Source of the DNA: Thermogladius sp.
GTDB lineage: Archaea; Thermoproteota; Thermoprotei_A; Sulfolobales; Desulfurococcaceae
NCBI GenBank assembly: GCA_022759365.1
Contig: JAEMPJ010000020.1
Span: forward strand, 1 to 51,036
Reading direction: 5' to 3'
Length of the DNA: 51,036 bases
The translations under genes were made by a program, and so were the position numbers. This document shows positions 2,738 to 12,644 of the stretch, in pieces (position 1 is the first letter of the stretch; every line of letters starts with the position of its first letter). The notes below the pieces were generated by a model. It had not been told where the DNA came from and did no database searches. It saw only the letters and a list, made by a program, of their open reading frames with translations.

Positions 2738-4684
2738 GTGTTTAGACAGGCTCTCCTAGTATTCCTACTTGCCATGGCTTTAACTCTACCTTTATTCCAA
2801 GGCGAAACCTTCAATTACACATATGTGAAAACTATTGTTATACATGCTCCCGCTGTTTCCTCCAGCGGTGGAGGCGTGTTAACCAACATCACCCTCACGA
2901 TCGCGTACCCTGGGATAGGGCGAGTATACTTCTCAGCCCTCCCTCTCACAGAGCTCGACACGCAGGCAGCCGCGAGGGTTGCCGCGTGGGTTGCCGCTAG
3001 CTTAAGTGGCGTGAACTTCTACGACTACGACTACTTCGTGTCAATGGAGGCCAGCGCCCCTGTTGTCGGGGGGCCTAGCGCGAGCGGGTTGATGACCGTG
3101 GGGTTCCTGAGCCTGTTCTTCAACACTAGCCTGAAGGCCTATGCCACGATGACCGGGATGATCAACCCGGATGGGTCTATAGGCCCTGTCGGGGGTATTA
3201 AGGAGAAGCTGGACGCGGCTAGGAGCATGGGCTTCACGCTGTTCCTAATACCCTACGGCCAGAGGTACTACACGTACCCAATTGTCAACGAGACTGTGAC
3301 ACCGTTCGGTATTATAAGACGCGTAACATACGCCACAGTCGACTTGGTAGAGTACGGTAGGAAAATAGGGGTTGACGTAATCGAGGTGAAGACAGCCAGA
3401 GAGGCATTCCAGTACTTGACGGGCTACTCTATAGCCTGCCCTCCACCCAGCAGGATTATCCTCCCCGAGGGCGTTGTCGATCTGGTGGACAATATCACGC
3501 TCAAAATATTGAATGAGACAAATAGGAGTATTGATGAAGCACAGAGGAGCCTCCAGTACATCTCGGGGAATACTCTCTACTATAATTACGTCACGCAAGT
3601 CTTATCTGATGCGAGGGCTTACTCCAATAATGCCACCCACTACCTTGGGCTGGGGCTAGATATAATAGCTAACTCGTATGCCTTCAGATCGCTCGTATAC
3701 TCCACCTACTCCCTCTGGTTGACGAGAGTACTTTCGGGTAGAACTAGCTTGGATGATGTTGCGAGAGAGGTGAATAACACGGTCAACTCAGCTGGCAATC
3801 TCTTCGCAGGGGTCGACCCGTTTAAGCAATCGTATTTCAGCCTTGAAGCCTACATCGATAATCTGGCCTCGTACTACGACTCGCTAATACTGTTTTACAC
3901 AGCCCTCAACTCAACGAGCCTTACAAGCCAGCTTAGCACTCTAGCATACTCGTATGTTGAAGCGAGGTTCCTGCCCGACTGGATGGAGCTGGTATCGATA
4001 GTTTCAGGCGGCCCGCCGGTCAACGAAAGCGTCGTCGGAAAACAGGCTTTAACCTTGTACAGCCTGGCCTCGACTACTGTACCATACGCTGAGACGCTGG
4101 CCAGCGAGACTGGTTCAAGCGTCGAAAGCCTGACGCTTGCTGGAGACTACTATTCGGCTGCCCAACAAGCCCTGAACCTCAACGACACCCTAGCCCTAAT
4201 AGGTTTAAGCATATATGCCTCAGCCTACTCGAGCCTAGCATTACACCAAATGTTCTCGCAGGGCCAAGCTATTACTCCGGATCTAGTTGAGACGATTGGA
4301 GGAGAGGCTTACTGCCTCCTCTCAAGAACCAACTTTTCCTCCATAATGGCGCAGATATACTACGAGTACGGTCTCGAAGCCTTAAACGCCTCATCGCTGG
4401 ACGAGGCCCTAGCCGCATTCTCCATGTCCATACTGTACTCCCAGGCCGTCCAGCAAACAGGTGTATCCATCCCAAGCGAGATAACCCCCTTCACCCAGAC
4501 ACCTCCACCAACCACCCTGACATCCACTGCCACTACATCGACCCCTCAACCTAGCCCGGAGACCTCCACCTCAACGACACCTGGAAAACCCGTTGCGACA
4601 GCGCTGATAATTAGCTTGATCGCGTTAATATCCCTCGTCATAGGCATTTTACTCTTGTTAAGGGGCTCGAGGTCTACTAGATGA
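2738..4684 (+). CDS. Secreted, membrane-anchored Lon-like (S16) serine protease
   Basis: N-terminal signal peptide; VGGPSASGLMTVGF (Ser) and MTGMINPDGSIGPVGGIKEKLDAA (Lys) Lon-type catalytic motifs; Thr/Pro/Ser-rich stalk and C-terminal TM helix. Confidence 0.85.
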   Translation: MFRQALLVFLLAMALTLPLFQGETFNYTYVKTIVIHAPAVSSSGGGVLTNITLTIAYPGIGRVYFSALPLTELDTQAAARVAAWVAASLSGVNFYDYDYFVSMEASAPVVGGPSASGLMTVGFLSLFFNTSLKAYATMTGMINPDGSIGPVGGIKEKLDAARSMGFTLFLIPYGQRYYTYPIVNETVTPFGIIRRVTYATVDLVEYGRKIGVDVIEVKTAREAFQYLTGYSIACPPPSRIILPEGVVDLVDNITLKILNETNRSIDEAQRSLQYISGNTLYYNYVTQVLSDARAYSNNATHYLGLGLDIIANSYAFRSLVYSTYSLWLTRVLSGRTSLDDVAREVNNTVNSAGNLFAGVDPFKQSYFSLEAYIDNLASYYDSLILFYTALNSTSLTSQLSTLAYSYVEARFLPDWMELVSIVSGGPPVNESVVGKQALTLYSLASTTVPYAETLASETGSSVESLTLAGDYYSAAQQALNLNDTLALIGLSIYASAYSSLALHQMFSQGQAITPDLVETIGGEAYCLLSRTNFSSIMAQIYYEYGLEALNASSLDEALAAFSMSILYSQAVQQTGVSIPSEITPFTQTPPPTTLTSTATTSTPQPSPETSTSTTPGKPVATALIISLIALISLVIGILLLLRGSRSTR

Positions 4685-9628: not shown

Positions 9629-11461
9629 TTAAACTGCTTCACCCTCACTAGGCTTTTCGACAATTTTCTTCAGCTGCCTCTTGTACATCTCCACGAGCTC
9701 TGAGGAGGTTGTCGCGTCCTCCGGCCCCTTGTCATCCCTCCACCTTATAAACCTGGGGAACCTAATAGAGATTCCCGCGTCGCTTCTAATTTTACCTACA
9801 CCACATGTGTGGAGTGGGGAGAGTGTCAGCTCTGCGCCTATGATCTCGGCGACTAGTTTCGGCTCAACCCACACGTCGGGCTCTATGTTTGAGACCACTC
9901 TTACAGGCTTCCTCTCCATTATGTAGGGTTTGAGTAGATCTGGTAGCTTGTTTAAGTCCTCGTCCGAGAAACCGCTTCCAACTTTGCAGACAGTCTCGAA
10001 GACATCCTTCTCATCATTATACGCCGCCATCAACAGGGCGCCGAACTTACCTCCCCTCCTCCCCTTCCCGTAGAAGGCGCCTACGACAACCAGGTCAACG
10101 GTATCTATCATCTCGCTCCTGTAGTCTCTCTTATACTTTATCCAAAGCCACCCTCTTGTACCAGCCTGGTAGATCGAGTCCTTGTGGAGAGCCTTCACCA
10201 TAACCCCCTCAGCGCCGTTACCTATTGCCTCCATGAAGAATTTCTCCAGGTCTCCGGGGGTCTTCACAGTAATGTACTCTGCTATGTCCAAGCCCTCATT
10301 CCTCTCAACGATCTCCTCTAGGGCCCTCCTCCTCTCAGGCAAGGGTTTTACAGTGTAGTCGACCCCGTTAGCATACAATAAGTCGAATAAGAAAACCTTT
10401 ACAGGTATCTCTTTAACGACTGCCTGAATATCATGCTTCCTCTTCCTATGCATCAACTCCTGGAAGGGCTTGAAGTCCCCAGTATCGGGATCCACGGCAA
10501 CTATCTCGCCTTCGACAATAGCTTCATCCGCTTTAATCCCCCTCCTCGCGTAGTCTACCACATCAGGGTACTGGTGTGTTATGTTCTCGAGTCTCCTAGA
10601 GTAGATTATCACCTCGCTACCCTTTTTGTGTATCTGGGCTCTCTCCCCATCATACTTGTATTCTACGAATCCTACACCGCCAACTTTCTCCAGAATCTCC
10701 ACAGGGTCGTTGTGTCTCTCAGCGAGCATGGGCCTAATGGGGATGCCTACAACGGGCTTCAACGCTTTCAACTCCTCAATACCTTTAGCGGCTACTATTT
10801 TAGCCACCTCGCCTAAATCAGCCCTCAGGTTGTAGGCTCTCTCGATTATAGGCCTTGCGAAGGATCCTCCCCCGAAGGCTATCGCAAGGGCATCCATTAA
10901 AGTGGCCTCCCCAACCCCCAGCCTCAGCTTCCCCTCCACGAACCTAACAATATACCTCGCCTCCTTAGGGGATGCCTCTGTCAACAGGCCTGAAAGCAAC
11001 CTTATCTTAATGTCTTTACTCCCCTCGCCCTGGGCCATTGCGATCCTCGCGAGGGTTTCATATACACGTGAAACCGTCAGCTCCCTCTTAGTTGAAACAA
11101 AGGATAGCAAGGTAGTAGCCTTCTTCTGCTTCTCCCTCGAGGCAGATATGAGGCTCTCAGCCGCTTTCCCGAGGTCGCCTAGAGTCTTAGCCGTCTTCTC
11201 AACTATATCCTCGCTTTGACCCGTCGCAATCGCTATCGCCTTGATAATAGACTTCTCGGCTACGCCTAGCTCGGGCAAGCCCTTCCAATCCGGCCACAAC
11301 TTCTCCTCGATGATATACACAACTTTATCTATTATCTCCGGCGGAGTCTTCTTCAGCAGGCTTGCAAGAATGTTCGTCATCTGCGTCCTCGAGGTAATGC
11401 TCTCCAGAGCCTCAAACGTGTCTGCTAAAACTTTGAAGGGTAAATCGTTAGCAGTGGACAC
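9629..11461 (-). CDS. lig: ATP-dependent DNA ligase
   Basis: [13 protein letters not shown] adenylation motif, [30 protein letters not shown], archaeal N-terminal DNA-binding domain. Confidence 0.98.
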
Positions 11462-11536: not shown

Positions 11537-11562
11537 GTGTCGCAGACGACACTTATTTAAAT
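11537..11562 (+). promoter_or_regulatory. Perfect inverted repeat GTGTCG-CAGA-CGACAC abutting a TATA-like CTTATTTAAAT; putative operator and promoter
   Basis: IR at 11537-11552, TATA-like element at 11552-11562; TATA centre about 27-30 nt upstream of the candidate C/D sRNA start. Confidence 0.55.
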
Positions 11563-11586
11563 AATGGGTCTTAACATTATTTTTCA

Positions 11587-11648
11587 CAGTGATGATGACT
11601 ACCCGGCAAGATTGAGGCTTGCAATGATATCTCAGTGTTACTCTGAGC
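11587..11648 (+). ncRNA. Candidate box C/D sRNA
   Basis: Box C ATGATGA (11592-11598; alternative GTGATGA at 11589), 13-nt guide CTACCCGGCAAGA, D' TTGA (11612-11615), C'-like ATGATAT (11624-11630), 12-nt guide CTCAGTGTTACT, box D CTGA (11643-11646); TATA box at correct spacing. Confidence 0.65.
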
Positions 11649-11695
11649 TTGTGCCCCCAACTACTTCGAATCCTAGAAGATTGCAGTCAGCTTAG

Positions 11696-11960
11696 TTTTG
11701 TTTTTCCTCGCCCATTGCTCCCTCCAGTACTTTAATGTTTATCAGCGTTGAGAACGCGAGGGACGGTGGTTTAAACCCTCAACTGTTTCTAACAATGCAT
11801 GCTGAAACGTCGCGCGATCCCTTGGCTCTAGAGAAGCAAGCATTGCTACCCCTGAGACCGTGATCCGGCTCTATACGTAGCCACGTTCTCTGGAAAGGGG
11901 TGAACTAGGAGGAAGCTCCTGGATGCAATGAGGGAGCGTTGGAGTGATGGTGGATGTTTA
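11696..11960 (+). pseudogene. Probable decayed IS200/IS605-family TnpB (OrfB) 3' remnant with right-end/omegaRNA-like tail
   Basis: Open frame 11696-11863 ending ..ENARDGGLNPQLFLTMHAETSRDPLALEKQALLPLRP*, followed by GGTGAACTAGGAGGAAGCTCC...GGAGCGTTGGAGTGATGG, resembling archaeal IS605 3' ends recalled from memory. Confidence 0.45.
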
Positions 11961-11987
11961 GAGGCACGCGGCGAGCTTGCTGGCCGG

Positions 11988-12644
11988 CTACTTTTTAATA
12001 AACTTCAGCAGGCCTTTCTCCCCTCTCCCAAAAGCCTCGTCTATGACTTGTTTGATAGGGCCCTTGAAATCCTTCTCGATGTCCTCTTTTAAACCTGGAT
12101 TGTAGAGCCCTGATGCCGGGTGGTATGTCGCGACCAGCTTAACTTTTAAGCCCAGTATTTCTACATCTCTCACTCTGCCGTGCTCCCTCGTCATGCTGGT
12201 CCAATTCAGCCCAGCAAGCTTGTAGAGAAACCTCCCCGAGTGTCTTCCAAGAGCTACTATGGCCTTTGGCTTCAACAGCTTGATCTGCCTCACGAGGTAT
12301 TCAGAGCAGGCCTGGATCTCCTCTTCTGTTGGATCCCTGTTCCCAGGCGGCCTACACTTCACGACGTTTGTTATATACACTCTACTCCTCTCAACCCCGA
12401 TCATGGATAGTAGTTGAGTCAAATACTGCCCTGCGGCCCCGACAAAAGGCCTCCCCGTTTCATCCTCCGTCCTCCCCGGCGCTTCCCCAACGAACAATAC
12501 TGGTGAGCTAGTGTCCCCTTCACCTGGTACAGGGTTCTTCCTATATTTATGTAGAGGGCACTTCTCGCATCTCTTTATTTCCTGGACAAGCGACTCCCAG
12601 CTATCACTCAAGGGAAACACCGGTGTCATCTTAAAATATGTCAA
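11988..12644 (-). CDS. Family 4 (Fe-S) uracil-DNA glycosylase
   Basis: CEKCPL..NPVPGEGD..VLFVGEAPGRTEDETGRPFVGAAGQYL, NVVKCRPPGNRDPTEEE, ATYHPASGL; four cysteines for a [4Fe-4S] cluster. Confidence 0.97.
   Translation of the reverse strand: MTYFKMTPVFPLSDSWESLVQEIKRCEKCPLHKYRKNPVPGEGDTSSPVLFVGEAPGRTEDETGRPFVGAAGQYLTQLLSMIGVERSRVYITNVVKCRPPGNRDPTEEEIQACSEYLVRQIKLLKPKAIVALGRHSGRFLYKLAGLNWTSMTREHGRVRDVEILGLKVKLVATYHPASGLYNPGLKEDIEKDFKGPIKQVIDEAFGRGEKGLLKFIKK

Follow-up and report, generated by a model that had tools for sequence, protein, structure and literature searches.

What occupies the gap between the DNA ligase and uracil-DNA glycosylase genes of a Desulfurococcaceae archaeon (Thermogladius), and, if it is the gene for a small RNA, which nucleotides would its product address? 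In a window of 51,036 nt (the whole stretch of DNA analysed), an initial annotation had placed here a candidate box C/D methylation-guide sRNA with its own promoter, and had tentatively given it a target in 16S rRNA.

Layout and genomic setting

The sRNA gene, on the forward strand like all its parts, extends from 11589 to 11646 and is about 58-60 nt long, as judged from a layout that is unique in the window and from the span conserved in relatives; the range given initially, 11537-11648, exceeds the RNA because upstream promoter-like DNA was included. Read 5′ to 3′, it comprises a box C, ATGATGA (11592-11598), whose GATGA core is conserved in A1, with an overlapping alternative box C, GTGATGA, at 11589-11595; the D′ guide, TACCCGGCAAGA (11600-11611), which pairs with 23S helix 71; a degenerate box D′, TTGA (11612-11615), at whose equivalent place relatives carry ATGA or AGGN; a box C′-like ATGATAT (11624-11630), identified from the sequence and from A1; the D guide, CTCAGTGTTACT (11631-11642), which pairs with 23S helix 69 and also with 16S GAGTAACAC; and box D, CTGA (11643-11646), identified from the sequence and from the relatives' copies. 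The spacers measure 13 nt (C to D′), 8 nt (D′ to C′) and 12 nt (C′ to D), and direct reading of the letters confirmed all the boxes and spacings, and the position of a TATA-like element, as they had been annotated. The features by which archaeal box C/D sRNAs are recognised, namely box C (RUGAUGA), box D (CUGA) and internal C′ and D′ boxes, are present in the window copy, and its guide spacers of 13 and 12 nt agree with the length of about 12 nt expected of the class. Motifs as short as these boxes, some of them degenerate, might in principle fall into such an arrangement by chance in intergenic DNA, yet a regular-expression scan of both strands of the whole window found the C-D′-C′-D layout at one locus only, 100 first-order Markov sequences of window length gave 0 matches, and the order-wide conservation described below already refutes a chance origin, to which we assign a negligible probability.

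The element is flanked by two reverse-strand genes, for an ATP-dependent DNA ligase (9629-11461; Pfam PF01068, PF04675 and PF04679) and a uracil-DNA glycosylase (11988-12644; Pfam PF03167). Both are also its neighbours in a congener (G001), where the order ligase, sRNA, glycosylase is retained and the glycosylase stop codon lies 14 nt from the sRNA. In the window, a 331-bp stretch (11655-11985) separates the sRNA from the glycosylase gene; it is absent from the congener and had no match in 20 relatives or in Rfam. Elsewhere in the genome lies a fibrillarin gene (PF01269, E 2.6e-104).

The TATA-like element, CTTATTTAAAT (11552-11562, forward strand), is found 27-37 nt upstream of position 11589, and the TATA box of an independent archaeal promoter is expected about 25-35 nt before the start of the RNA. 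Across copies of the sRNA, TATA-like hexamers occur most often between 26 and 40 nt upstream of box C; 52 of 116 copies have one in that interval, as does the window copy. Such a motif has been found in only about 20% of the archaeal C/D sRNA genes studied (review, PMC7994747). The "own promoter" of the initial annotation is supported only as a motif, enriched from -40 to -26 across copies, and an independent promoter for the sRNA is accordingly putative.

Conservation across the order

When a 161-bp query was compared with 41 genomes, congeners matched with 91% identity over query positions 51-107 only, that is, from box C to box D or just beyond it, and the conserved core is confined to the boxes and guides. 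A DNA pattern derived from the two guides retrieved 38 records from public genomes, 35 of them archaeal, and all but a few of the latter are named as Desulfurococcales or Sulfolobales or as one of the families or genera that these comprise; the bacterial matches (L079, L084 and L100) were put down to chance. With a profile search, 159 of the 197 genomes of the order were matched at E ≤ 1. The profile also matches, more weakly, some other genomes in the phylum, and many of these weak matches may be due to chance or to other C/D sRNAs.

Guides and boxes were counted in 132 copies extracted from relatives, the window copy excluded. The distance from the GTT core of the D guide to box D is exactly 3 nt in 131 of the 132 copies with a D guide (the exception is in genome G057), and box D reads CTGA or CCGA in 125 of the 131 copies scored. 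Most copies have a degenerate box D′, often AGGN in relatives. Several copies in one family (f8, including L163, L164 and L224) have a D guide with the 3′ end A/GGTTTCG, which breaks the pairing beside box D; their match to helix 69 is shorter, and the N+5 spacing is nonetheless kept.

Targets of the two guides

The organism's own 16S and 23S rRNA genes gave no match in its assembly (G000), although completeness is given as 99%, and the rRNA contigs are probably absent from it; targets were for this reason read from the congener and other relatives. The D′ guide, TACCCGGCAAG, forms 11 of 11 contiguous pairs with 23S CTTGCCGGGTA in helix 71, with no gap or mismatch, and only 5 of 2000 shuffles of this guide reach 11 contiguous pairs with 23S. 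The D guide of the window copy, TCAGTGTTACT, forms 10 of 11 pairs with AGTAACTCTGA in 23S helix 69, with one U-U mismatch. In the family as a whole the D guide is complementary to 23S helix 69 (GUAACUCUGA), and most other families have TCAGAGTTAC, its perfect complement, or a near variant. Taken by itself the D guide is unremarkable, with 12 of 400 shuffles reaching 10 of 11 pairs and about 7% reaching a contiguous run of at least 9, whereas none of 1500 shuffled guide pairs reproduced the joint match of both guides within 100 nt, so that the weight of the D-guide assignment comes from the paired targets and from the relatives, not from the single match.

In the 23S rRNA of relatives the bases at N+5 are Watson-Crick paired in both guides, and the two sites lie 32 nt apart where the 23S gene is intronless. 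The constant 3-nt spacing between GTT and box D fixes the target nucleotide, placing the same A at N+5 throughout. We take the predicted sites to be the equivalents of E. coli A1913 (D guide) and G1945 (D′ guide). Both 23S targets are intact in relatives, and neither they nor the 16S target varied in any relative read, which leaves no covariation between guide and target to observe. Several relatives (L054, the 23S gene of G001, positions 3593-4208; L045 and L059; L046, L056 and L058) carry insertions that either separate the helix 69 target from the one in helix 71 (insertions of about 583, 141 and 33 nt) or directly follow the helix 71 target. They are probably rRNA introns, in which case intron positions lie between the two guide sites or immediately beside them.

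The reading as a box C/D methylation-guide sRNA, the class proposed at the outset, is strongly supported because the layout, an order-wide conservation limited to boxes and guides, the matches of both guides to neighbouring parts of 23S rRNA, and the fibrillarin gene all agree with it. We regard this sRNA as very probably a genuine double guide, with the D′ guide directed to helix 71 and the D guide to helix 69 of 23S rRNA. Transcribed from its own promoter, the RNA would form an RNP with L7Ae, Nop5 and fibrillarin, its guides would pair with the two helices, and 2′-O-methylation would fall on the target nucleotide that is fifth from each D-type box, on a G in helix 71 and an A in helix 69, both at the subunit interface. 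The gene is then one of an ordinary kind, well supported, and with better targets than first proposed. A role mainly as an rRNA folding chaperone, in which the guides would keep helices 69 and 71 in place while assembly proceeds and methylation would be secondary, might draw on the chaperone role proposed for such sRNAs (PMC4644070), on the fact that both guides address neighbouring interface helices and on the probable introns between or beside the targets in several relatives; but an N+5 spacing to box D that holds in all but one of 132 copies is what would be expected if the position of methylation matters, and we consider a mainly chaperoning function improbable.

What, then, of 16S rRNA? 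The match proposed initially exists, and its 8 nt extend to 9 contiguous pairs with GAGTAACAC (segment GAGUAACAC) when the first base of box D is counted, but it does not stand as the main target of the family, whose D guide complements 23S helix 69. Were the D guide to address this 16S segment alone, the nine pairs would satisfy a published nine-pair rule. Runs of at least 9, however, arise in about 7% of shuffled guides, A-form relatives (below) pair poorly with 16S and perfectly with 23S, the UCAG of the guide is conserved without any 16S partner, and the double-guide geometry would be left unexplained, all of which makes an exclusive 16S target very unlikely.

A second possibility is that the D guide serves both subunits. 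At one position the window guide has U in place of A, which weakens its pairing with helix 69 and leaves the 16S pairing about equally stable: duplex energies for this U form are -13.9 kcal/mol with 23S (mismatch included) and -13.4 kcal/mol with 16S, unlike those of the A form, at -18.2 and -8.5 kcal/mol, respectively. U is the main alternative base at this position (A 79, U 49, G 3, C 1), and monophyly of its carriers is rejected (p-AU 2e-6), the 23S tree requiring 4 or more changes. Moreover, guide positions 2-3 are AC in 23 of 24 U genera as against 13 of 33 A genera. When other perfect targets of the U-form guide (GTAACACTGA) were sought in several genomes, the sRNA itself was the only match in G000, G001, G020 and G008, and further matches were scattered in G006, G012, G016 and G022. 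Together with the invariance of both rRNA targets, these observations fit a dual-target D guide, for 23S helix 69 and 16S GAGUAACAC, in the U-variant lineages, the window included. Against this, the AC constraint may just as well make up for the U-U mismatch with helix 69, the association of AC with U is not independent evidence given that the genera are related, and UCAG, needed by the 23S pairing only, is conserved in U copies, which argues that the 23S pairing is kept in both A and U forms. We therefore view dual targeting as plausible on sequence grounds, if somewhat short of an even chance, and as an extension of the double-guide explanation that is not exclusive of it. More tentatively, this one base may be an evolutionary switch, A restricting the D guide to helix 69 and U adding 16S GAGUAACAC, that has been toggled repeatedly while the rRNA targets stayed fixed; if so, a single sRNA would link the methylation of two ribosomal subunits. 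In any case, the A/U variation allows one to ask, as in a natural experiment, whether a guide is able to switch targets or serve several when the rRNA itself stays constant.

Comparison with known guide RNAs

No Rfam family reached its gathering score in the window. At relaxed settings the Rfam search returned only sub-threshold matches, the best to an archaeal family being sR15, whose 17.5 bits fall short of the cut-off of 40. The Rfam sR families (sR15, sR60 and sR2) belong to the same RNA class, but their guides differ and their scores lie far below the gathering thresholds. Searched as text in the literature, the guide sequences gave no relevant match.

A close parallel is with archaeal double-guide sRNAs (Dennis et al., 2015; PMC4644070), which share with the window sRNA the C-D′-C′-D layout, guides of about 12 nt and the N+5 rule, as well as two guided sites in a single rRNA no more than 100 nt apart and targets in the helix 68-71 hotspot. 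Helices 68, 69 and 71 are published hotspots of archaeal methylation, and double guides with sites within 100 nt and one mismatch allowed form an accepted class (PMC4644070); the window D guide satisfies the published pairing criteria only through this relaxed one-mismatch rule for double guides. The text read contains no mention of the order-wide spread of this sRNA family or of its A/U switch. What had been a tentative motif call can be read as a family of sRNAs found throughout the order, with two exactly placed predicted methylation sites in the inter-subunit bridge region.

Another parallel exists in yeast, where Am2256 of 25S rRNA (helix 69) is guided by snR63 and Gm2288 by snR75 (PMC5199042, PMC8307265). 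The yeast sites are 32 nt apart, as are the predicted archaeal ones, and their numbers exceed those of the E. coli equivalents by a constant 343, an equivalence of position that is drawn from numbering and helix assignment rather than from an alignment with yeast. With the same two positions methylated in yeast, the sRNA family bears on the age of these modifications. Yeast employs two snoRNAs, snR63 and snR75, for this purpose, whereas in the archaeal case one sRNA would serve both sites.
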